Part shown: piece after piece, positions 17,592 to 43,447 of the stretch
Position numbering within the stretch: position 1 is the first letter of the stretch
Layout: each line of letters opens with the position of its first letter
Assembly (NCBI RefSeq): GCF_005298075.1
Contig: NZ_SZZH01000006.1
Coordinates: forward strand, 310,001-374,000
Direction: 5' to 3'
Source: Nakamurella flava
GTDB taxonomy: Bacteria > Actinomycetota > Actinomycetes > Mycobacteriales > Nakamurellaceae
DNA: 64,000 nucleotides
Made by a program: the position numbers and the translations under genes
The notes under the pieces: model-generated
Told to the model about the DNA's origin: nothing
Database searches by the model: none
Seen by the model: the letters and a program-made list of their open reading frames with translations, nothing else

Positions 17592-17939
17592 TCAGGCGTA
17601 CCGCACGACATTGAGCTGCCGAGCGAGGTCGTCCGCCTCCGCAGGGTCTGTTCCGGCGACGCCGGGATAGAACCACTTCTCCCACACCGCGATGACGTCG
17701 CCCGCCGTGAGCGGGGTGAGGCTGTCAGTACGACCGAGCATTTCGACGAAGTCGTCGATCTCATTATCGTATTCGTCGGTGGGACAGCCCATCTCGAGCA
17801 GGCCTACCGGGTCGGCAGTGTCGACGACGGCCTTGACGCGACTGCGCAGCGATCGGCGTTGCGGGCCGGTGGGTGACCGCTCGGGTCTCGGAACTTGAAT
17901 AGCCACCTCATCAACTATTGCCGAACTTATTTCGGTCAT
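17592..17939 (-). CDS. Small unknown protein, paralogue of the gene at 34812 (DUF1871-like)
   Basis: A 115-residue acidic protein. DPVGLLEMGCPTDEYDNEIDDF, then LTAGDVIAVWEKWFYPG and a C-terminal LARQLNVVRYA, align with DPEGLLALGAPDDEYSAQVGEL, ITAADVLEVWVARFGPD and LVRALNDVRPA of the protein at 34812-35108. The spacing of DEY, VW and the C-terminal LN-VR matches throughout, so they are paralogues. The layout resembles DUF1871; the function is unknown. Base composition of the N-terminal part is less GC-rich than neighbours. CATACT lies six bases before the ATG. Confidence 0.65.
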   Translation of the reverse strand: MTEISSAIVDEVAIQVPRPERSPTGPQRRSLRSRVKAVVDTADPVGLLEMGCPTDEYDNEIDDFVEMLGRTDSLTPLTAGDVIAVWEKWFYPGVAGTDPAEADDLARQLNVVRYA

Positions 17940-17962: not shown

Positions 17963-18003
17963 ATCTCTGGGTCGCGTAATTGAACATTATGTGACCCAGA
18001 GAT
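17963..18003. repeat. 41-bp near-perfect palindrome, candidate recombination site
   Basis: ATCTCTGGGTCGCGTAAT at 17963-17980 and the reverse complement of ATCTCTGGGTCACATAAT at 17986-18003 match at 16 of 18 positions, around a five-base centre TGAAC. The outer 11 bp are perfect. The site lies between the small unknown gene and the recombinase pair. Paired inverted arms around a short spacer are what tyrosine recombinases bind at a crossover site, so an attachment or transposon-end site is likely. It could also be an operator of the gene at 17592. No second copy was found in the window. Confidence 0.55.
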
Positions 18004-18161
18004 TCGGACTCGGGTACCGTCCAGACCATGACCCCGGCCCCGGTTTCCCGCCGCCGCACGCGGCGATCGGAGCTGTGCGTGCGGTCCGGGGGTGTCTCCG
18101 TCCATCGACCGGGGCCGCCGCGATCGGTCGCCGGGTCATCGGCCGGGCGGGTGCTGTCACC

Positions 18162-19336
18162 GTGACACTTCTCCCCACTCGACCATTCGAGCCGGCGGTC
18201 GGCGACGAGGGCCGGGGTGAGGTGCGCCCGGAGCTGTGGGAGCAGGTCCTGGCCGCGGTGGCCGGGTCGACCGCGGCGGCGACGCAGGAGGCCTACCGGC
18301 GGGACTGGGCCCGGTTCGCGGCCTGGGCCGGCGAGCAGGGGTATGTGGCGTTGCCGGCGTTGCCGGCGGTGGTCGCCGGGTACCTGACCGCGGCCGCCGC
18401 CGAAGTCGACGAGTCCGGCCGGCCCCGGTACAAGACCGCCACCCTGATCCGGTGGGTGGCCTCGATCAACCAGATCCACCGGGCCGCTGGCCACCCCGGG
18501 CCCGGCGCAGCGAGCTGGTCCGCCGCACCCTGGGCGGCATCAAACGCCAACACGGCACCCGCCCGTCCCGGCGGGACCCGCTGCTACTGACCGACCTGCG
18601 GGCCCTACTCGGCCCCATCGGCCAGTCGTTCGGGGGGTGGCCGGCCGGGGTCGCCGCCCGCCGCGACGCCGCCCTGATGCTGCTCGGGTTCACCCTGGCC
18701 GCCCGCCGCAGCGAACTCACCACCCTGACCCTCGGGGACCTGACCCTGCACGGCGACGACGGCCTGCACGTGCTGCTGCGCCGATCCAAGACCGACCAGG
18801 AAGGCCGCGGCCAGGTCAAGGCCGCCCCCCGCGGCCGCAACCTCGCCACCTGCACGCCCTGCGCCGTGACCCGGTGGGTGCAGCTCGTGCACGCCGCCGA
18901 CACCGCCACCCCGACCCCGGACGGCCGGGACGGGCAACGCCTCGCGCTCATGCCGGTCCTGCGCCGGCAGATCCGCCCCGTGCCCGGTGACGGGCACGTG
19001 TGCCGCGACCCCCTCCCCACCCCGGCCGACCCGACCGCGCCGGTGTTCCGGGTGGTGCACCGCACCGGCCGCCTCTACCCCCGCGCGATGGGCGGGGACG
19101 CGGTCAACCAGGTCATCGCCCGCCGCGCCGCGGCCGCCGGCTGGCCCCCGGAGAAGATCGCCCTGCTCGGCGGGCACTCCCTACGGTCGGGGTTCATCAC
19201 CGAAGGGTTCCGGGCCGGCGGAGACCCCGCCGCGATCATGCGGCAGACCGGGCACCGCAACCCCGCCCAACTGGAGACCTACCGCCGCGAACACTCCCCC
19301 CTGGTCGGCAACATCGTCCAACAACTCGACCTATGA
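18162..19336 (+). pseudogene. Tyrosine recombinase/integrase, frameshifted
   Basis: The N-terminal SAM-like DNA-binding domain (AATQEAYRRDWARFAAW onward) is in one frame. Near 18498-18507 the frame changes and the whole catalytic domain follows in another. The related copy at 42400 has one more base at this place (CCCCGGGCGCAG versus CCCGGCGCAG) and reads through, so a one-base deletion is the simplest cause. Catalytic residues are intact: Arg in AARRSELTTL, Lys in RRSKTDQ, HSLR, the later GH and Tyr in LETYRRE. ATCTPCAVTRW adds a Cys pair also found in the next gene. No slippery heptamer was seen, so programmed frameshifting is not supported. The GTG start is tentative. Confidence 0.75.
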
Positions 19337-20364
19337 CCAGCACCCCGCCACCGCCGGCGCCGGTGGGGGAGCAGCCCGTCAAGATGTCGCCGGCGTACCG
19401 GGCGGCGTGGGAGCTGTTCGTCGACTGGTGCACCACCACCGGCCACACCCCGCTCCCCGCCGGCTCGAGCACGGTGCTGGCGTTCCTGCACGATTGCCCG
19501 GCCGCCCCGGCGACCCAGGCCCTGCGGGTCCGGGCCATCACCACCGCCCACACCCACGCCGGCCACCCCGCCCCGCCCCGCACCCCCGAGATCCTGGACG
19601 TCCTGCGCGGACGGGCCCGGCGGCCCGACCCGCGGATCCCGCTCCCGCCCGGGCACGTCGACCAGCTCCTGACCGCCCTCCCGATCCACGGGTGGACGCA
19701 AGGCTGGTTCGGCCGCCGCGACCGCGCCCTACTCGTCCTGGCCGACACCGCCCTGACCTACCGGGCCATCGCCGAACTGACCGTCGGCGACATCTACTTC
19801 ACGCCCGCCGGCGCCAGCGTCCACAGCGGGAACGACGTCGTCGAGCTGCCAGTCGGGACAAGCCCCGTGCGATGCCGGCCCTGCGCCCTGGCTCTGTGGA
19901 TCGACGCCCTGCAGCTCGCCGCCACCAGCGCCACCGTCCGGGTCGCTCGCACCGTCCACCGCGCCGCACCGCTCACCGCCGACAGCCCGCACCGTTGCCG
20001 ACAACCCGTCACCATCACCGACGGCGCCCTACCGCTGCTGCCCGCCGCCAATCCCTGGGGCCAACTCGACCTGCAACCCGCCCCGATCACCCGTCGGACC
20101 GTGTCCCGCCTCGCCCGCAACGACGAGCCCCGCAACCACCGGCACCACCCACCACCAGCCGGCGAATCACCGACCCCGCCGCCTGCGGCCCCGCCCCCGC
20201 GCGTGCGGCTGGAACCGCTCGACTCAGCCAGGGCGGCCGCCGTACGGAACGCCACCGCAGCCGCTCTCGCGCCGCTGACCGTCGTTCTCGATGACCTTGA
20301 CGCTGCCGCAGTCGAACTCGAACGTAAGTCCGTGGCGCTATTGAAAAAATTTGTAGGCGAGTGA
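19333..20364 (+). CDS. Recombinase-like partner protein, active site degenerate
   Basis: A 343-residue protein starting ATGA-coupled to the recombinase stop. The N-terminal half has a core-binding-like domain (YRAAWELFVDWCTTTGH, LAFLHDCP), then RRDRALLVLADTALTYRAIAEL, aligned with the Arg box of tyrosine recombinases but with altered spacing. RCRPCALALWIDAL matches TCTPCAVTRWVQLV of the preceding gene, showing common descent. The Lys, HxxR and Tyr positions cannot be found. The second half is Pro/His/Arg-rich low complexity, ending in a helix-forming tail. A non-catalytic subunit that works with the neighbour is inferred. It meets the next gene tail to tail, 17 bp apart. Confidence 0.65.
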   Translation: MTSTPPPPAPVGEQPVKMSPAYRAAWELFVDWCTTTGHTPLPAGSSTVLAFLHDCPAAPATQALRVRAITTAHTHAGHPAPPRTPEILDVLRGRARRPDPRIPLPPGHVDQLLTALPIHGWTQGWFGRRDRALLVLADTALTYRAIAELTVGDIYFTPAGASVHSGNDVVELPVGTSPVRCRPCALALWIDALQLAATSATVRVARTVHRAAPLTADSPHRCRQPVTITDGALPLLPAANPWGQLDLQPAPITRRTVSRLARNDEPRNHRHHPPPAGESPTPPPAAPPPRVRLEPLDSARAAAVRNATAAALAPLTVVLDDLDAAAVELERKSVALLKKFVGE

Positions 20365-20381
20365 CATCTACTCACTCAGTA

Positions 20382-21236
20382 CTATTTGACAGTTAAGTCA
20401 ATTGACGCTTCGAATCGTGTTGAATACCCACTTCGTTTGGCGACCAGCCAGTCAGCGTACTGCAGCAAGCCCAAGGCTAATGCAATGGACGGGCAGATGG
20501 TCAGAACGTTAACGGTTCCTCGAACTAATGTGCCCGTCTCGGTCTCTTCAAGGGACTCGAATTCCGCAGAATTTAGGTGAGCCCAGGATCGAGCGTGAGC
20601 GTGACCACTGGCAACACGCCACAAGATGACAGCGCTGTCCGGCTTTGCGCATCTCGATTCTCGAGCCGCTACCTTGATGCATTCAACGGCGGCAGGGCCG
20701 TTCACGATCTGCTCACGACTCATTGCCCATGGTAATAGTTCGAGCTTTTCGGTAAGCCTGGCGCTATGCGCTTGTCGCAGGCTCAGACCCAGGCGCTGTC
20801 GTTTACGAGCAGAATAGGTAAGTTCGATTGCAGTGATCTCATCAATTGCATCCCTGTTCCACATTTGAAACGCGCGGGCGAAGCGCTCCTTCTGAGAATC
20901 GGGAGACGCAATCCAGATCGCGTATGCCGCCGCCTCGATGACAACCCGTGTGAGCGTCCAAGCCGAGTGAGATGGCCATTCGGCTAACCCTCCCGGTGGC
21001 TGCCCTGTTAGCCGACGCAGTACTTGCATATGGTCTCTGGCAGCGGCCAAATGAACATTGCACCAGTAAGGTGGTGTCGGATGCCTCATTAGCTTGAGGT
21101 CGTCGCCGAAAGAGCTAGCCGGTAAGACCCTAAGAGGGCGCTCTGCCTCGTAGAGTTCATGGAACGCCCGGTAGTAGGACTCGATCTCCAAGAGGGCTGA
21201 CTGTTCAGTTGAGAGTCCACCAGGCACTTCGTGCAT
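20382..21236 (-). CDS. Unknown protein with HEPN-like R-x6-H motif
   Basis: A 284-residue mostly helical protein with no close named family I recognise. It shares a plan with the protein at 26964-27824: DHMQVLRRL, a central TRVVIEAAAYAIWIASPDS (compare LLRGAVESAATACWLAFPAD), and a C-terminal WRVASGHAHARSWAH (compare WRLCSAMAHGRRWAQ). Arg207 and His214 form an R-x6-H as in HEPN nucleases; activity is inferred only. GC content is well below that of the core genes, which suggests acquisition. GAGAGG lies about six bases before the ATG. It is third in the RHS - membrane protein - unknown series on this strand. Confidence 0.65.
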   Translation of the reverse strand: MHEVPGGLSTEQSALLEIESYYRAFHELYEAERPLRVLPASSFGDDLKLMRHPTPPYWCNVHLAAARDHMQVLRRLTGQPPGGLAEWPSHSAWTLTRVVIEAAAYAIWIASPDSQKERFARAFQMWNRDAIDEITAIELTYSARKRQRLGLSLRQAHSARLTEKLELLPWAMSREQIVNGPAAVECIKVAARESRCAKPDSAVILWRVASGHAHARSWAHLNSAEFESLEETETGTLVRGTVNVLTICPSIALALGLLQYADWLVAKRSGYSTRFEASIDLTVK

Positions 21237-21660: not shown

Positions 21661-24600
21661 CTAGCAGGCGTTCTCGGAACAGTAATCCTCGCCCACCTGA
21701 GCCGAGGTGGTAGCAACGCCGTAGGCTGCTGATGCTCCCCATCCGGCTTGCGCCGAGTCATAGGCTCCCGCGACAGATTTGCCAAGGGCCCCACCCAGGA
21801 CGCCCACGGTGACGTCTGTTGCGATCCCACCAAGGACTTCGTCAGATGATTTGCCCTTCATGACGTCCGAGGCGGCACCCAGAGCGCCAGCGACAATACC
21901 GGCTCCGATACCCCACCAGCCGGGGAAGAAACTCCCGACCATGCCGATGGCGTCACTGGCGACTCCCAGAAAGTCTGCAAAGTCCAGGCCGCTTGGGTCG
22001 CTATAGGTGACGGGGTTGTTGCCGGCGTAGGCGTAGCGGTTGGCTTCCTGGCCGGAGGGGTCAGGTTGAGTGAAGCGGCCGGTATTGGGGTTGTAGTAGC
22101 GGGCGCCCATCTTGTACAGGCCGGTGGGGTCGAGGTAGGCGCTGGTGTATCGCCATGGGTTGTTGGTGGCTTCGGAGCCGGTGGCGGACAGGGTGTTGCC
22201 GTACGGGTCGTAGGTGTAGGCGGCGGCGCTGGCGCCGGAGGAGTTGGTGACCAGCAGGACGGAGTTCAGGTTGTCCAGGGTGTAGTAGAAGCTGGCGCCG
22301 GGGTCGTTGTGCCAGGCGACGAGGGTGCCGTTGGGTTCGCGGATGTACTTTTCGCCGCTGCTGCTGGTGGTGCGTTGTCCGACCTGTCCGCTGGCCAGGT
22401 TGGTTGTGAAGCCGGTGCCGCCGGCCTGGGTGCGTTCGTTGTTGCTGACGCCGGCGTAGGTCAGGGACGCGGTTCCGCCGCTGGTGGTGCCGGTGAGCTG
22501 GTCGAACCCGTTGTAGCTGTTGCCGCCGCTGGTCTGGTTGCCCTGGCCGTCGTAGGTGTAGGTGGTGGCCCCGGACGGTGCGGTGCACGAGCTGCTGGTG
22601 CCGGTGCCGGACCAGCAGAGCTGGTCGGCGGCGTTGTAGCCGTAGTTGGTGGTCGCCGCGGTGCCCAGGCTGCTGCCGGTGATGGCCTGCTGGGTGCGGT
22701 TGCCGTTGAGATCGAAGACCCAGGTGCCGGTGCCGGTGGTGACGCCGCTGCTGTTCTTGACGGTGGCGGTCTTGAGCTGGTTGGCGCTGTCGTAGGTGTA
22801 GGTGGTGGTGTTGTTGTTCTGGTCCTTGATGGTCTGCACCAGACCGGTGTCGGTGTTGGTGCCGGTGGTGTAGGTGTAGGCGCGTTTGACCAGGGTGCCG
22901 CCGGAGGGGTTCAGGCCGGTGACGGCGGTGAGCCGGCTGCTGGTGTCCCAGGTGTAGGTGTTCTTGCCGCCGGTGGGGAACTTGTTCTCGGTGCGCCGGT
23001 TGGCGTTGTCGTAGGAGAACCCGATGCACTTGGTGGAGTTCGGGAACGACGGGGTGGCCGGGCAGGACCCGCCGGGCTCGGCCAGGGAGGTCAGCCGGTT
23101 CGCGGCGTCGTACCGGTAGGTGATGACGTCCAGGGACCCGTTGCCGCCGTCGGCGCTGGTCAGCTGGTTACCGACCCGGTCGTAGGTGGCGTAGCTGTTG
23201 AGCCAGGCCGCACTGGCCTCGGTCTTGGTCAGGGGCCGGTTCTGGGCGTCGTAGGTGATGGTGGCGGTGCCGGCGGCGCCGGTACGGCTGGTCATGTTCC
23301 CGGCGGCGTCATAGCCCTGGGTGACCCCGGACGCGGCGCCGCAGTTGCTGGAGGTGGTGGACACCTGCCGGATGCGGTCGTTGGCGTCGTAGCAGGTCCA
23401 GGTGGTGGTGCCCTTGCCGTCGACCTCGCTGGTCTTACGGCCGGCGGCGTCGTAGGTGAACGTGTGCGCGCCCAGCGGCGAGGGGTAGGTGATCGTGGTG
23501 ACGTTGCCGGCGGTGTTGTAGCTGTAGCTGGTGACGTTGCCCTTGCCGTCGGTCACCGAGCACAGCTGCCCGGACTTGCCGCCGCACGAGGCGGCGGTCG
23601 CTCCGGAACCGCCCTGGTACTTGTAGCTCCAGGTGCCCAGGGCGCCGGCGCCTCCGCCGGCCGGGGCGCCGCGGACCTCGCTGGCGGTCTGGCCCCACGA
23701 GTTGTAGGTCAGGGTCGACTTGTTGCCCTCGGCGTCCTTGACGCTGGTGGGCCGGTAGTCGGCGGTGGCGCCGCCCCCGATCGCCGTCGGGTAGGTGTAC
23801 TCCACGGTCCGCCCCGCCGCGCCGGTGCCGCCGCTGCCGCCGGTCGGGGAGGTGACCTTGGTCAGGTTGTACGTCGAGGTCGCGAACTCCATGTTCGTGG
23901 CGTCGTTCAGAGCGCTGGTCCGCTTGGTCAGCTCTCCGTGGGCGGCCCACACGCTGCCCGTCGAGTGGTTCAGGGCGTCCTTGACGTCCTCGACCTGCTT
24001 GGTCGCGGTGACGTAGGTGTAGGTGGTCGTGTTGTTGTTCGAGTCGGTCACCGTGGTCTGGGTGGACGAGGGGTAGGCCCACGTCCAGGTGCCGGACACC
24101 GCGGTGTCGTTGGCGCCGAACACGGTCGAGGTCACCTTGCTGCCGGTGCCGTAGGCGAAGTCGGTGCGCCGGCCGGAGCCGTCGGTGATCGAACCGAGCC
24201 GGTTGGCCGAGTTGTAGGCCCAGGTCGTCTGCTGGCCGGTGGCGTCGGTGACCTTGGTCAACGCGCCCTTGGGGCCGCCGTAGACCAAGGTGATGGTCCG
24301 GTTCAGCGAGGTGTCGGTGATGGTCGTGGGCTGGGTCGGGTTCGGCGAAGCCGAGTACCCGAAGTTCACGACCCGCCCCTGGGTGTCGGTGATCTTGGTG
24401 AGCTTGCCGCCGGCGTAGGTGTAGGTGATCTTGTTCTGGCCGGTGACGTCCTCGGTGCGGACCAGCTGCAGGTTCGCACCGTCGGAGATGTAGACGTTCT
24501 TGACCTGGGCCGGGTGGAACACCAGCTCATAGGTCGCGCCGGGGCTGGTCTCCCAGTTCGGGGAACCGTTGACGGTGCGCGTGAGATGGGCGTTGATGTC

Positions 24601-26256
24601 GTTGGGCACGTTGAACACCCCGGTAGACCCGGTCTCGACGAACTTGAATGCGGTGCCCTTGCCGTCGGTGTAGCGCATGGAGCCGTCGGAGTTGCGGTAC
24701 AGCTGGGTCTCGAACAGGCCCATGTTCAGGGTCGGCCGGAAGTCGTTGAACGAGTTGTAGCGGACCCCGATCCCTACGGCCGGACCGACGCCCTTGAGGC
24801 CGAGGAGCTGTTGGGTGACCAGCAGGTTGCCGTTGGTCGGGTTGACCTCGACCTGGGTGCGGTCGTTGATCGACCGAGAGGACGGCTGCTGCGAGCCGCG
24901 GGACCCGGACTGCTCGACCGCGGACCCGGACGCCGGGCCGACGACGTTGCTGTTAGTGAAATAGCTCTGGGCGTCGACGATCACGTTGATCGACCCGGAC
25001 GTCGAGTTGTTGCGGACCTTGATCTTGCCGTCGGTGCACCCAACCCGGGTGATCACCGTGTTGGAGGTGATCGCGTCGGCGGAGAAGTTCATCGACGCCG
25101 CGGTCGGCGTCGACTCATCCGACGGCCACACCGTGACTGACCCGTCCGGAGCGGAGGCCGAGTCGGCCATCACGTGGAACACGACACCGGCGGCGTTACA
25201 GATGTCGGCCGGGACGCCCTGGGCACCGGCGACCTGCACGTCACGGGTCGTTCCGGCGGCCACCTTGTTAGTCGAATTGGTCTGCAGCAGCCGGTAGCCC
25301 AGCGGGGTCCACGCCGGGTTGGACGGTTGACCGTCGAAGTAGCCGAGCACGTTGACCTTGATCGGCACCGACGGGTTGGCGTTGGTCATCTTGATGGAGA
25401 ACTTGCCCTGCGCGTCCAGGTCGATGATCGTGCCGATCGAGACCTTCTTTGGGAACTCGTACCGGATCGTCGTCGGCGGCGGGGTGGTCGCCGCCGACGG
25501 GAACGCCACGAACTCACCCGGACCAGTCGAGGCAGTCGAGTCGACCTCGAGGTTGGCGTAGATCGCGGTCGCGGTGATGGGGATCTGCCCGACACCGGTG
25601 GCCTGGATGGGGCTGGAGGTCTGCCCGGACGACAACGGACCCACGGTTCCGAGATCGGCCAGGCCGGAGACGTACCCGCCGGGGGCGGGCGCGCCATTAC
25701 CGGTGGTGAAGTAGCCCTGCACGTCGATCTGGATGTTCGGGATCGTCGCCCCGGCCGCCCACAACTTGATCTTGCCGTCGTCACCGTTCTCGATGACCAC
25801 GGTGTTGGAGGCGCCGTCGACCTCCTCGAAGTTCAGCAGGGTCTGCGCCGCCGCCGCCGAGCCGCCGGTGTTGGCCTCCGCCGAGATCCACCCGTTGGAC
25901 GAGCTCGGGTTGATGATCGACACCGTGGCCACGATCGCGGCCACATTGCTGGTCGGCAGACCCGCGGCCCCGTTCACCGTGATCACCCGCGGCGTCGCGG
26001 TCAGATCACCGCTGAACCCGACTCCGGAGGTGTTGTTGACCAGCGTGGCCTGCGGGATTGGAACGAACTGACCGCCCGTACCCGTCGGGTCCGCCGCCGC
26101 CGGAGCACCGGTGGGCGCCGCGGCGACCTGCACCCCGAACACCACCAACACCACCGCCACGATCCCGGCGATCAGCCGCCGACCCCTACCGCGCCAGCCG
26201 CCGCCGCAGCGCAGAGCGGCCTGATTTCGGGCATGGCGAAGCAGGGCAGCAGACAT
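21661..26256 (-). CDS. Secreted RHS/YD-repeat protein with a variable C-terminal tail
   Basis: A 1531-residue exported protein. The signal peptide (residues 1-50) has an Arg-rich start and IAGIVAVVLVVFGVQVAAA. Three beta-domain repeats follow, ending IDVQGYFTTG, VNVLGYFDG and VDAQSYFTNSN. Then come some twenty YD repeats (TYTYDSANQL, FDLNGNRTQ and similar). The RHS core closes with YKMGARYYNPNTGRFTQPDP and NRYAYAGNNPVTYSDPSG. After the core a 108-residue tail is rich in Gly, Ala and small-residue helices and ends in Cys. In polymorphic toxins this tail is the effector; its glycine-zipper look suggests membrane insertion. The ATG at 26256 gives a proper signal peptide; the frame is open a little further. 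Confidence 0.88.
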   Translation of the reverse strand: MSAALLRHARNQAALRCGGGWRGRGRRLIAGIVAVVLVVFGVQVAAAPTGAPAAADPTGTGGQFVPIPQATLVNNTSGVGFSGDLTATPRVITVNGAAGLPTSNVAAIVATVSIINPSSSNGWISAEANTGGSAAAAQTLLNFEEVDGASNTVVIENGDDGKIKLWAAGATIPNIQIDVQGYFTTGNGAPAPGGYVSGLADLGTVGPLSSGQTSSPIQATGVGQIPITATAIYANLEVDSTASTGPGEFVAFPSAATTPPPTTIRYEFPKKVSIGTIIDLDAQGKFSIKMTNANPSVPIKVNVLGYFDGQPSNPAWTPLGYRLLQTNSTNKVAAGTTRDVQVAGAQGVPADICNAAGVVFHVMADSASAPDGSVTVWPSDESTPTAASMNFSADAITSNTVITRVGCTDGKIKVRNNSTSGSINVIVDAQSYFTNSNVVGPASGSAVEQSGSRGSQQPSSRSINDRTQVEVNPTNGNLLVTQQLLGLKGVGPAVGIGVRYNSFNDFRPTLNMGLFETQLYRNSDGSMRYTDGKGTAFKFVETGSTGVFNVPNDINAHLTRTVNGSPNWETSPGATYELVFHPAQVKNVYISDGANLQLVRTEDVTGQNKITYTYAGGKLTKITDTQGRVVNFGYSASPNPTQPTTITDTSLNRTITLVYGGPKGALTKVTDATGQQTTWAYNSANRLGSITDGSGRRTDFAYGTGSKVTSTVFGANDTAVSGTWTWAYPSSTQTTVTDSNNNTTTYTYVTATKQVEDVKDALNHSTGSVWAAHGELTKRTSALNDATNMEFATSTYNLTKVTSPTGGSGGTGAAGRTVEYTYPTAIGGGATADYRPTSVKDAEGNKSTLTYNSWGQTASEVRGAPAGGGAGALGTWSYKYQGGSGATAASCGGKSGQLCSVTDGKGNVTSYSYNTAGNVTTITYPSPLGAHTFTYDAAGRKTSEVDGKGTTTWTCYDANDRIRQVSTTSSNCGAASGVTQGYDAAGNMTSRTGAAGTATITYDAQNRPLTKTEASAAWLNSYATYDRVGNQLTSADGGNGSLDVITYRYDAANRLTSLAEPGGSCPATPSFPNSTKCIGFSYDNANRRTENKFPTGGKNTYTWDTSSRLTAVTGLNPSGGTLVKRAYTYTTGTNTDTGLVQTIKDQNNNTTTYTYDSANQLKTATVKNSSGVTTGTGTWVFDLNGNRTQQAITGSSLGTAATTNYGYNAADQLCWSGTGTSSSCTAPSGATTYTYDGQGNQTSGGNSYNGFDQLTGTTSGGTASLTYAGVSNNERTQAGGTGFTTNLASGQVGQRTTSSSGEKYIREPNGTLVAWHNDPGASFYYTLDNLNSVLLVTNSSGASAAAYTYDPYGNTLSATGSEATNNPWRYTSAYLDPTGLYKMGARYYNPNTGRFTQPDPSGQEANRYAYAGNNPVTYSDPSGLDFADFLGVASDAIGMVGSFFPGWWGIGAGIVAGALGAASDVMKGKSSDEVLGGIATDVTVGVLGGALGKSVAGAYDSAQAGWGASAAYGVATTSAQVGEDYCSENAC

Positions 26257-26709
26257 GGTGATCCCCCGAAGAAGGAAGGTGTCAACTCGAAGACCCAGAT
26301 CCCACCCTGTAGGCCAAACGAGCATGTGAACGAGCTATGACAGCCTCGCACAATCGGGGCATAGCCATGCCACAGCGACAACTGAACCAATGGATAGATA
26401 CCGTAGGCAGAGGGATCGTTACCCGAATGCAAGAAATCGTCGCGGGACGTTACGCAGTCGAGATAACAAACTGTCACAGCGATATGCCGCTCGATAGATC
26501 TGAGCGGGCGACATCGGACCCTCGGACCAGCGAGGACACCAACGACCAAGATCAACATTCCGGGTCGAAACCGGTCATAGGTTGAGCAACCCGATCGTGT
26601 CCTATCGACCGCCGATGTTCATGTGCTTCGTGCCGACGCATACACCGTGGCGTGCGGGCGAGGTGCGTAGGCCTGGCTTTGGGGATGGGTCATCGAAGCG
26701 GCTGACACC
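26257..26709. other. AT-richer intergenic region
   Basis: Lies upstream of the RHS gene. On the minus strand TTGACA at 26280-26285 could be a -35 box for RHS but lacks a -10 at normal spacing. The short frames here have no initiation signal or coding bias. No repeat or RNA gene was recognised. Confidence 0.4.
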
Positions 26710-26868: not shown

Positions 26869-26963
26869 ACGCTGCGCCCAACTGACCCAACGTGAACGAA
26901 CGCGATGCTCCTATTTGGAGTGGCAGGGAAAGATCGGTAGCGGCCACGGAAGGGGCACTGCGG

Positions 26964-27824
26964 ATGACAGAGCGCAAAAGACCGGTACCAGCTTGCCCGG
27001 CATGGTTAACTGAGGAACAATGCTTAGAAATGCTGGGCCAGTGGCTTCTGTACTCGCCGGAAGTTCGGTCAGCCGAACAAGCGCTGATGGGTGGACATTT
27101 TCCTCACTCAGGCACCGACCTGTTTGCAGACGACCTCGCCACCAGCCCGGAGCAGATATCGCACCGCATTACGTCGCGGATCGACGTCGCGGCGGACCAT
27201 ATCGAGTCCCTGCGACTGAATATCTTTCAGGAGGAGCAGATGGCTCCTCCCTACGCCATGTTCTCCTTGCTGCGCGGAGCAGTTGAAAGCGCTGCCACCG
27301 CGTGTTGGTTGGCCTTCCCGGCCGACGCCGTGACCCGGCGGCTTCGCGCCCTACGTGTAGCCCATCACGAGGCGAAAGACCACGAGACGTACGTCCACCA
27401 CCAGATGGAACGCAACCCGAACCTTCCGCAACCAGAAGGTAGCCCACCCACGACCGCGCCGAAGAGGCTGCTCGAGGCGCTCCAGTTCAACCCTGCTAAG
27501 AACAAGCTGACCTACGTCGAGATTATGAAGGATGTCGATAAAGAGATCCAGATCGTTCCCGGCCGAGCGTGGTGGTGGGAGATCGAGAACTGTTGGCGCC
27601 TCTGCTCGGCAATGGCGCACGGACGGCGATGGGCCCAATCAACCGTTCTGAAAATGGAGATAGTATCCGAACCAGAACAAACGCAGTCTGTGACTGCGAG
27701 GTTCACGCCCTCCGCTCAATGGCTGGCCTGGGCAATCGTTCATGCCGTTGGCATGATGGACTTGGCCTTATATCGAGCGCAAGAGCTGGGTACTCGCCGT
27801 GACGGCCAGGAATCGACAACCTGA
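26964..27824 (+). CDS. Unknown protein with HEPN-like R-x6-H motif (paralogue of 20382-21236)
   Basis: A 286-residue helical protein. It shares with the gene at 20382 the helix containing LLRGAVESAATACWLAFPAD and the C-terminal WRLCSAMAHGRRWAQ, both at like distances from the C-terminus. Arg212 and His219 fit the HEPN R-x4-6-H pattern. ATG 26964 has GGAAGG about ten bases upstream; a GTG at 26892 would add 24 residues but has no such signal. It lies on the far side of the RHS gene, facing away, so the two paralogues bracket the RHS unit. Function unknown; a role linked to the RHS locus or defence is speculation. Confidence 0.65.
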   Translation: MTERKRPVPACPAWLTEEQCLEMLGQWLLYSPEVRSAEQALMGGHFPHSGTDLFADDLATSPEQISHRITSRIDVAADHIESLRLNIFQEEQMAPPYAMFSLLRGAVESAATACWLAFPADAVTRRLRALRVAHHEAKDHETYVHHQMERNPNLPQPEGSPPTTAPKRLLEALQFNPAKNKLTYVEIMKDVDKEIQIVPGRAWWWEIENCWRLCSAMAHGRRWAQSTVLKMEIVSEPEQTQSVTARFTPSAQWLAWAIVHAVGMMDLALYRAQELGTRRDGQESTT

Positions 27825-42383: not shown

Positions 42384-42399
42384 GTCGGCCGCCGGCCCG

Positions 42400-42839
42400 C
42401 GGCCGCCAAGCTCGACGTCGACGGCCGTCTCCGGTTCAAGACCGCCACCCTGATCCGGTGGGTGGCCTCGATCAACCAGATCCATCGGGCGGCCGGCCAC
42501 CCCGGCCCCGGGCGCAGCGAGTTGGTCAGCCGCACCCTGGGCGGCATCAAATGCCAGCACGGCACCCGCCCCTCGCGGCGGGACCCGCTGCTGCTGACCG
42601 ACCTGCGGGCCCTGCCCGGGCCCTTGTCGCAGTCGTTTGGGGCGTGGCCGGCCGGGGTCGCCGCCCGCCGCGACGCCGCCCTGCTGCTACTCGGTTTCAC
42701 CCTGGCCGCCCGCCGCAGCGAACTCACCACCCTGACCCTCGGCGACCTCACCCCTGTACGGCGACGACGGCCTGCATGTGCTGCTCCGCCGGTCCAAGAC
42801 CGACCAGGAAGGCCGCGGCCAGGTCAAGGCCGGCCCGCT
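42400..42839 (+). pseudogene. Tyrosine recombinase fragment, near-copy of 18391-18836
   Basis: Encodes the middle of a recombinase: RFKTATLIRWVASINQIHRA, RSELVSRTLGGIKCQHGTRP, DAALLLLGFTLAARRSELTT and, after a one-base insertion in the C run at 42751-42754, LHVLLRRSKTDQEGRGQVKA. It begins without the N-terminal domain and stops before HxxR and Tyr, so it cannot act. Long stretches are identical to the region 2 gene at DNA level, in the same orientation 24 kb away. At 42839 it is joined to a relaxase-helicase fragment. Confidence 0.75.
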
Positions 42840-42841
42840 CC

Positions 42842-43447
42842 CAGATCAAAAAGGCGACCCGCGAGAACCTGCACCTGGCCTACGTCAACACCACGCACGG
42901 CGTGCAGGGCGACGCCAGCGAGCACGGCGACGAACTGCTCACCGACCGCACCAGCGCCCCCGCCGCCTATGTCGGGCTCACCCGCGGGCAAAAGTCCAAC
43001 ACCCTGCACATCGTCGCCCGCACCGTCGACGACGCCCGCGAACAATGGGTCACCGCCGCCGGCCGCGGACGCCCCGACCTCTGCCTGGCCAACGCACAAG
43101 CCGTCGCCGCCGGCGAAGCCGCCGACTACGCAACCCAGGAACAGGAACCAACCGTGAGCGTCGTCGACGACCGCGCCGCAAAAAAACCTCGCTCGAGACC
43201 CGAGCAGGAAAACCAGCCGCGCCCCGGGGAACCCGGCGGTCGGCAACTCACCCCCGCAGAACGGCTCGCGCGTGTCCGAACGCAATCCGCCACCCGATTC
43301 GCCGGACGGGCCGGCCGCCGCACAACGCCCGTCGACCGTCGGGAACGGGAAACCGTCGCCGACACCACGCACGAGGAGGACACCATCGACCTCGTCGACG
43401 ACGACAACCCCCGGCAGCAATACCGCGGCCACGGACCACGTCGCTGA
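42842..43447 (+). pseudogene. C-terminal fragment of a TraA/MobF-type conjugative relaxase-helicase
   Basis: The frame reads RENLHLAYVNTTHGVQGDAS, SAPAAYVGLTRGQKSNTLHI, then a charged C-terminal tail rich in Asp, Glu and Arg. 'AYVNTTHGVQGD' and 'AYVGLTRGQKSNTLHIVAR' are the end of the UvrD-like helicase domain of actinobacterial TraA relaxases (the helicase motif near GVQGD). The relaxase domain, Walker A motif and most of the helicase are missing, and there is no start. It is the remnant of a conjugative or integrative element. Confidence 0.75.

Follow-up and report, generated by a model that had tools for sequence, protein, structure and literature searches.

A candidate Cre/lox-type site beside a tyrosine recombinase and its non-catalytic paralogue in Nakamurella flava

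Cre-type tyrosine recombinases have mostly been described from phages and plasmids, where a single protein makes up the system, and loxP, whose geometry is used for comparison here, comprises two 13-bp arms and an 8-bp spacer. Previous studies report that SCre recombines SloxP (PMC4957104) and that a Cre-like recombinase beside repABC of the S. meliloti plasmid pSmeLPU88b is tied to plasmid maintenance via concatemer recombination (PMC10194956). The present analysis concerns a stretch of 64,000 nucleotides from Nakamurella flava (assembly GCF_005298075.1, contig NZ_SZZH01000006.1, positions 310,001 to 374,000; hereafter the window), in which a palindrome lies at the head of a Cre-like tyrosine recombinase gene that is followed by a recombinase-like partner gene lacking the active site.

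With a probability of roughly 0.6, the palindrome is interpreted as the cognate site at which a Cre/lox-type recombinase binds and performs crossover; this enzyme probably resolves dimers, or aids the segregation, of plasmids and of some chromosomes. Membership of the Cre/lox type is assigned on the homology of the catalytic protein and the form of the site, recombination itself being presumed, while the proposed function is suggested by plasmid contexts and, in Nocardia, by copy number and location. According to this model, a pair of recombinase molecules would occupy the two arms of the palindrome, strand exchange would take place at predicted cleavage positions inside its short asymmetric centre (about TTGAACA), and two sites on a replicon dimer would recombine to give monomers. 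The partner may bind DNA, the catalytic subunit or both, acting at one half-site or in an accessory or regulatory role.

Palindrome and catalytic family

The initial annotation described a 41-bp inverted repeat with 16/18 complementary arms and a five-base centre, and this description agrees with the sequence in every detail (Table 1). Taken simply as a repeat, the palindrome is uncommon without being extreme: one scoring at least as high was present in 6 of 200 random 1350-bp pieces of the window with the palindrome excluded, and in 7 of 60 pieces in an earlier version of the test, from which it had not been excluded. Folded as RNA, the palindrome is far more stable than shuffled sequences (z -6.9). 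Its weight comes from its conservation elsewhere and not from its size. A terminator or chance alone was ruled out as an explanation, since the core recurs at other loci with altered arms. Among plasmids, the 41-mer of the window had just three weak matches, all of them on Lactiplantibacillus plasmids.

In the loci fetched from 17 Nakamurella genomes, 11 adjacent recombinase pairs were found, which belong to six genomes. A search seeded with the cores of the window and of L060 (up to two mismatches, 21 sources) returned six matches, all upstream of a catalytic gene. The core TAA-N3-AAC-ATTA lies upstream of five of the 11 pairs (the window, L051, L052, L053 and L054), 0.2-0.3 kb before the first conserved codon and, in L051, on the opposite strand; the arms vary between these loci and are still partly self-complementary. 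The pattern TAANNNAACATTA, which was formulated only after the matches of the seeded search had been seen, matched ten times across the 17 genomes, five times beside pairs (0.0005 expected by position), and its reversed control matched seven times. Two orphan core sites, GCATAATCGAACATTATGC at G000:C2:89942 (L068) and GCAGATAATCAAACATTATCTGC at G408:C1:4385878 (L075), are possibly resident sites; no family recombinase was found among the open reading frames (ORFs) of these 3-kb loci, and L075 contains an ORF that is transposase-like by eye. A near-perfect palindrome of another kind, CGTCGGAGCGTTGCAACGTTCCGACG, is present at the head of three N. endophytica pairs, in L048, in one L049 pair and, with one base changed, in L050, where the TAANNNAACATTA core is missing.

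Of the 79 catalytic frames drawn from 80 loci, 55 were aligned, and the residues R, K, H, R and Y are invariant in all of them. Since HSLR or QTG[HQ] formed part of the patterns used to fetch the loci, the conservation of HxxR is partly by construction, that of R, K and Y is not. The third His position holds His in 42 homologues and Trp in 13, and Cre itself has Trp at this position. A CxxC...HxC insert is likewise invariant (55/55), which suggests a metal site. P1 Cre is the closest solved protein to the family by sequence (E 8e-28) and also the closest by fold to a model of the homologue in L129 (Foldseek E 7.5e-11, template modelling (TM) score 0.62 by query). The XerC and XerD equivalog cut-offs were reached neither by the N-terminal piece from the window (13.5 bits against XerD) nor by the L129 homologue (33.9 bits for XerD and 33 bits for XerC, against cut-offs of 329.6 and 335.15). 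Homology to Cre combined with the R-K-H-R-(H/W)-Y residues, which are also found in the window frame 18221-19336, places the family among the Cre-type enzymes. No phage record matched the homologue in L051.

It was originally proposed that the locus is an integration machine, that is, an integrative element moved by a two-subunit recombinase, with the palindrome as its attachment site. The uneven spread among Nakamurella genomes (the A1 profile matches 7 of the 17), the several copies per genome, the lower-GC stretch that adjoins the window copy and a fragment of a homologous gene 24 kb away (copy B, Table 1) are consistent with this proposal. However, the full palindrome is single-copy in its own 4.84-Mb genome at up to three mismatches (a hybrid site with a diverged arm could escape this search, and L068 holds one further core match), the family is closest to Cre, and the related site in Nocardia is nearly genus-wide and occurs once in most genomes, a pattern more in keeping with a resident site for resolution or segregation than with an attachment site. 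An integrative element is thus considered quite improbable.

Site and recombinase in Nocardia and on plasmids

Nocardia loci with single-gene homologues yielded the palindrome CTGACCnCCGATAAGTGAACnTTATCGGnGGTCAG. The sequence GATAAGTGAACNTTATC matched 74 of the 78 Nocardia genomes, of which 71 have a single copy and three have two, whereas the reversed control gave no match; in a phylum sample of 396 genomes it matched only the two Nocardia and none of the 394 others. The recombinase profile matched 75 of the 78 Nocardia genomes at E<=1e-20, including all 74 that bear the site (in G464 the gene is cut by a contig end). The four site-less genomes, in which no site was found even at up to three mismatches, comprise three without the recombinase and G437, which has it in three pieces. 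The co-occurrence of site and recombinase gives a Fisher p of 7e-7, uncorrected for kinship. No adjacent partner was detected by the partner profile in ten Nocardia loci showing site and gene (two being the same record), and the palindrome thus follows the catalytic protein rather than the pair. The notion of a catalytic and non-catalytic pair with a palindrome of its own is borne out as to the recurrence of the pair and the association of palindrome and recombinase, but not as to the Nocardia sites, which do without the adjacent partner.

Distances between site and gene were measured to the best recombinase of each Nocardia genome, which was on another contig for 12 of 77 sites. For 63 of the 65 same-contig sites, the recombinase follows 0.2-115 kb downstream and has the same strand, and two sites are inverted relative to it at about 160 kb; the median of all 65 is 11 kb. 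With distances of up to 115 kb or more, the site is not simply the operator of the gene. On the far strand upstream of the site, the head of a C..PGC...YC protein was found in 18 of 20 Nocardia loci, starting 106-117 nt away in 17 and 510 nt away in one, and the ORF family that includes this protein was found in all 20; in the nine loci read, the protein extends as what looks by eye like a long coiled coil. The protein, with the head C..PGC...YC...HTRWRAWRERQR in L203-L222, appears KfrA-like by eye, and one such protein that was tested had no Pfam match. A relative is located 0.3-1.9 kb from an AAA/ParA-type ATPase gene on the two Arthrobacter plasmids viewed.

These neighbourhoods bear on a regulatory explanation, according to which the palindrome is an operator that involves no recombination and through which the recombinase-like proteins or the partner control either the operon that encodes them or a divergent neighbour. 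The short distance between the Nakamurella site and the first conserved codon and the start of the divergent coiled-coil gene about 0.1 kb from the Nocardia site in 17 of 20 loci would agree with an operator, as would the structural matches of the partner, which include SroF, YopR and MrpR, recombinase-fold regulators of SPbeta-like phages by their entry titles. On the other hand, site and gene still co-occur in Nocardia when far apart, and all 55 aligned homologues retain the catalytic Arg, Lys and Tyr, which makes an operator unlikely.

A canonical dif-like sequence, separate from the site, was matched in 67 of the 78 Nocardia genomes; in 37 cases, picked by eye, in which it shares a contig with the site, the two are 11-908 kb apart. 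In 13 near-complete chromosomes the site tends to lie near dif (combined 2d/L test 1.4e-8, uncorrected for ancestry, with G452, whose only match is 2.69 Mb away, included and a second dif-like match in G421 left out). The strict dif pattern had no match in the N. flava genome. Sixteen viral contigs also carry the exact Nocardia core, which is taken, by estimate, as chance in so large a collection.

When compared with plasmids, the Nocardia site matched 38 records, most with weak E-values and many of them alphaproteobacterial. In three of the six matches opened (plasmids of Rhizobium WL3, Paracoccus yeei and Methylocystis rosea), the palindrome lies no more than 5 kb from a tyrosine recombinase gene; these enzymes score 101, 166 and 161 bits, respectively, against the family profile, and CxxC...HxC is missing in all three. 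The SloxP sequence is found exactly on the Shewanella ANA-3 plasmid NC_008573.1, where a tyrosine recombinase 3.5 kb away scores 206 bits and is probably SCre, although a further recombinase lies in the neighbourhood. On two of three Rhodococcus pair plasmids examined, intergenic palindromes that have GTTTCGTA/TACGAAAC in common, two in all, were seen 12-20 kb from the pair (at L233 near 6267 and at L235 near 38818), and offer a lead to a candidate site of the Rhodococcus pairs.

Several observations weigh against a Cre/lox-type resolution site. The recurrence of the palindrome beside other copies of the pair, by which the initial annotation could be checked, holds for five of the 11 Nakamurella pairs, and the core was not found near the other six; G400 and G404, whose five pairs are without the core, have no exact match to TAANNNAACATTA anywhere in the genome. 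Among the 80 named loci there are 26 adjacent pairs, six of them in Nakamurella, and in the fetched stretches the core was found near none of the 20 testable pairs outside this genus (19 with upstream sequence and the Nocardia pair L059, some near-identical); the sites of these pairs could be farther from the genes, as in Nocardia. Arm symmetry is lower at the five pair sites (mean 7.8/12) than at 23 distinct single-enzyme sites (mean 11.0/12; Mann-Whitney p 0.001; 24 before L146 and L221, the same Nocardia record, were merged), but the two groups come from different genera, and symmetry among the pair sites is highest in that of the window, beside a broken gene. A second recombinase pair about 7 kb past the window end (copy C, L002/L061), both genes of which are open, has no palindrome upstream, and its catalytic Lys position holds Gly. 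In the phylum sample, six genomes from other genera contain a homologue at E<=1e-30 but no Nocardia-type site, the four Nocardia genomes without a site may reflect fewer than four separate losses, and beside a separate canonical dif a second resolution site would look redundant. For the matches in Nocardia NBC_00511, Streptomonospora and Frondihabitans, no tyrosine recombinase is annotated in the stretch, the gene table being incomplete. Finally, no recombination event and no empty or recombined site turned up, although no dedicated empty-site comparison of the window island was made.

Non-catalytic partner and the window copy

The ATGA coupling of the two genes (overlap at 19333-19336) and their paralogy were both confirmed, with a BLAST E of 5e-7 for the window genes and 4e-13 for the copy C pair, and an hhalign probability of 99.9%. 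The paralogy spans about the first 260 residues of the partner (247 columns), the alignment ending at about residue 266, short of HxxR-Tyr, and better alignments likewise gave the partner no HxxR-Tyr. At the Arg I column, the place of which was judged by eye, 24 of 25 aligned partner frames from the 80 loci plus the window have Pro, Ser, Thr, Gly or Ala, and one has Arg. The partner model (predicted local distance difference test (pLDDT) 81, predicted TM score (pTM) 0.55) is Cre-like over residues 9-266, with Z 11.6 and a root-mean-square deviation of 11 A over 207 residues, indicating that the domain angles differ; a low-confidence linker and a helix at 298-342 follow. As judged from the gene junctions, a translationally coupled catalytic and non-catalytic paralogue is a recurrent arrangement, which occurs in Nakamurella and several plasmid-bearing genera. 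In a tree of 57 rows, the pair or single state needs at least seven changes (quick method, long branches flagged).

The partner could also be a decaying duplicate that is carried along by the operon structure, as it has lost the active site, evolves faster than the catalytic gene, lacks CxxC in 15 of 25 cases and is split in L050. This explanation deserves very little credence, considering that the ratio of nonsynonymous to synonymous substitution rates (dN/dS) of partners is 0.19-0.44 in nine of nine comparisons, some of which share loci (catalytic genes, 0.10-0.27), that in 24 of the 25 pairs examined the partner starts -3 to +6 nt from the stop codon of the catalytic gene (the exception being L107), and that the catalytic model has no counterpart of the long C-terminal helix. 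The partner is under purifying selection.

A two-subunit recombinase machine is plausible. More tentatively, the system may be a heteromeric Cre, in which the catalytic subunit and the dead paralogue would each take one half-site and thereby determine how the site is oriented or in which order the strands are exchanged; the single-enzyme form of Nocardia would then be a second, dif-like system of the chromosome, next to a coiled-coil gene of plasmid type. Half-site sharing by the partner is favoured by the lower arm symmetry at pair sites, and would resemble that of XerC/XerD at dif, unlike which one subunit would be permanently inactive.

The active site had been attributed to the first gene of the window only. 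Its Arg, Lys, HxxR, His and Tyr are indeed all in the frame 18221-19336, but the gene is not one open frame, as its core-binding and catalytic domains are split over two (Table 1). Comparison of homologous stretches revealed a one-base length difference near 18503 between this gene (copy A) and copy B. The window gene looks disabled by a frameshift, which may be a real mutation or a sequence error. A programmed frameshift was ruled out, because the catalytic gene is a single open frame in 77 of the 80 fetched loci (L137, L148 and L149 are split).

Around copy B (window 42384-43447), which follows a MarR-like gene, the sequence runs into what appears by eye to be the C-terminal part of a relaxase, and the region looks like the remains of a lost mobile element. 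Closer to the pair, the genes at 20382-21236 (-) and 26892-27824 (+), mutual distant relatives by eye, flank a gene for a 1554-aa RHS-like protein (21661-26325, -); one of the two has a sub-threshold match to DUF5677.

Table 1. Features of the lox-like locus and related sequences in the window
Feature	Position	Strand	Remarks
Lox-like palindrome (candidate site)	17963..18003	+	arms 18 bp (16/18 complementary), 5-nt centre TGAAC
Palindrome core TAATTGAACATTA	17977-17989		recurs upstream of 4 other Nakamurella pairs; similar form in Nocardia
Catalytic Cre-like tyrosine recombinase gene	18162..19336	+	frameshifted near 18503; GTG 18162 likely start, uncertain; domain match
Open frame with N-terminal core-binding domain	18162..18590	+	homology stops near 18503
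Frame with catalytic domain	18500..19336	+	Arg, Lys, CxxC...HxC, HxxR, His, Tyr
Partner: Cre-like front half, linker, 45-residue C-terminal helix, non-catalytic	19333..20364	+	intact frame
Divergent 115-aa gene on the far side of the palindrome	17592..17939	-	no Pfam or NCBIfam match
Copy B, internal fragment of a close catalytic-gene homologue	42384..42850	+	in frame where copy A shifts; own frame change near 42750; truncated

Comparison with known systems

Among the open-access papers listed as matches, judged by title and start of abstract, none concerned a lox-like site of Nocardia or a Cre that is co-translated with a dead paralogue. The long site strings were not found in open-access papers, and the papers matching GAACATTAT with 'recombinase' were unrelated by title. 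MrpA of plasmid SCP2 may be a precedent. If the Cre/lox-type interpretation is correct, the locus would represent a new recombinase/site family, in which Nocardia carries site and enzyme nearly universally, mostly in single copy and tending toward dif, while in a related branch the enzyme is accompanied by a dead paralogue. Such a family would provide a natural test of the division of labour between half-sites, and would raise the question why a dif-bearing genus keeps a second system of this type.

An RIT element consists of three consecutive tyrosine recombinase genes, and Tn554 carries tnpA, tnpB and tnpC and inserts at a fixed att site. A loose likeness to both had been suggested for the Nakamurella locus and was not supported: it has two genes only, one of which is without an active site, and no third gene continues the operon.

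The XerCD/dif and single-enzyme XerH/difH systems are similar in that the inner half-sites TAAT...ATTATG resemble actinobacterial dif, represented here by the dif of Frankia as given in PMC3025954, and in that the Nocardia site is mostly single-copy and often near dif. Unlike XerCD/dif, the proteins described here are far under the XerC and XerD cut-offs, the centre has one extra base, and a separate canonical dif is present in the same genomes. The modules of toxin-antitoxin and tyrosine recombinase genes on the alphaproteobacterial plasmids of Rhizobium WL3 and Paracoccus yeei lie beside a palindrome of the same form, and the Methylocystis plasmid has such a palindrome near a recombinase and repC; however, these modules contain toxin-antitoxin genes instead of an annotated partner paralogue, and are without CxxC...HxC.

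The Cre/loxP family (P1 Cre, SCre/SloxP, Nigri/nox and Panto/pox) shares with this locus a homologous catalytic protein and inverted arms around a short asymmetric centre, situated near the gene or some kb from it, and CCGATAA...TTATCGG is common to SloxP and to the Nocardia and alphaproteobacterial sites. The sites described here differ from loxP in their TAA-N7-TTA form and in a symmetry that extends past 13 bp. The enzymes differ from those of the Cre/loxP family by CxxC...HxC, which is found in 55/55 catalytic homologues and in none of the four plasmid relatives compared over this region, and by their co-translated non-catalytic paralogue, while the Nocardia form, also unlike that family, is chromosomal and nearly genus-wide.

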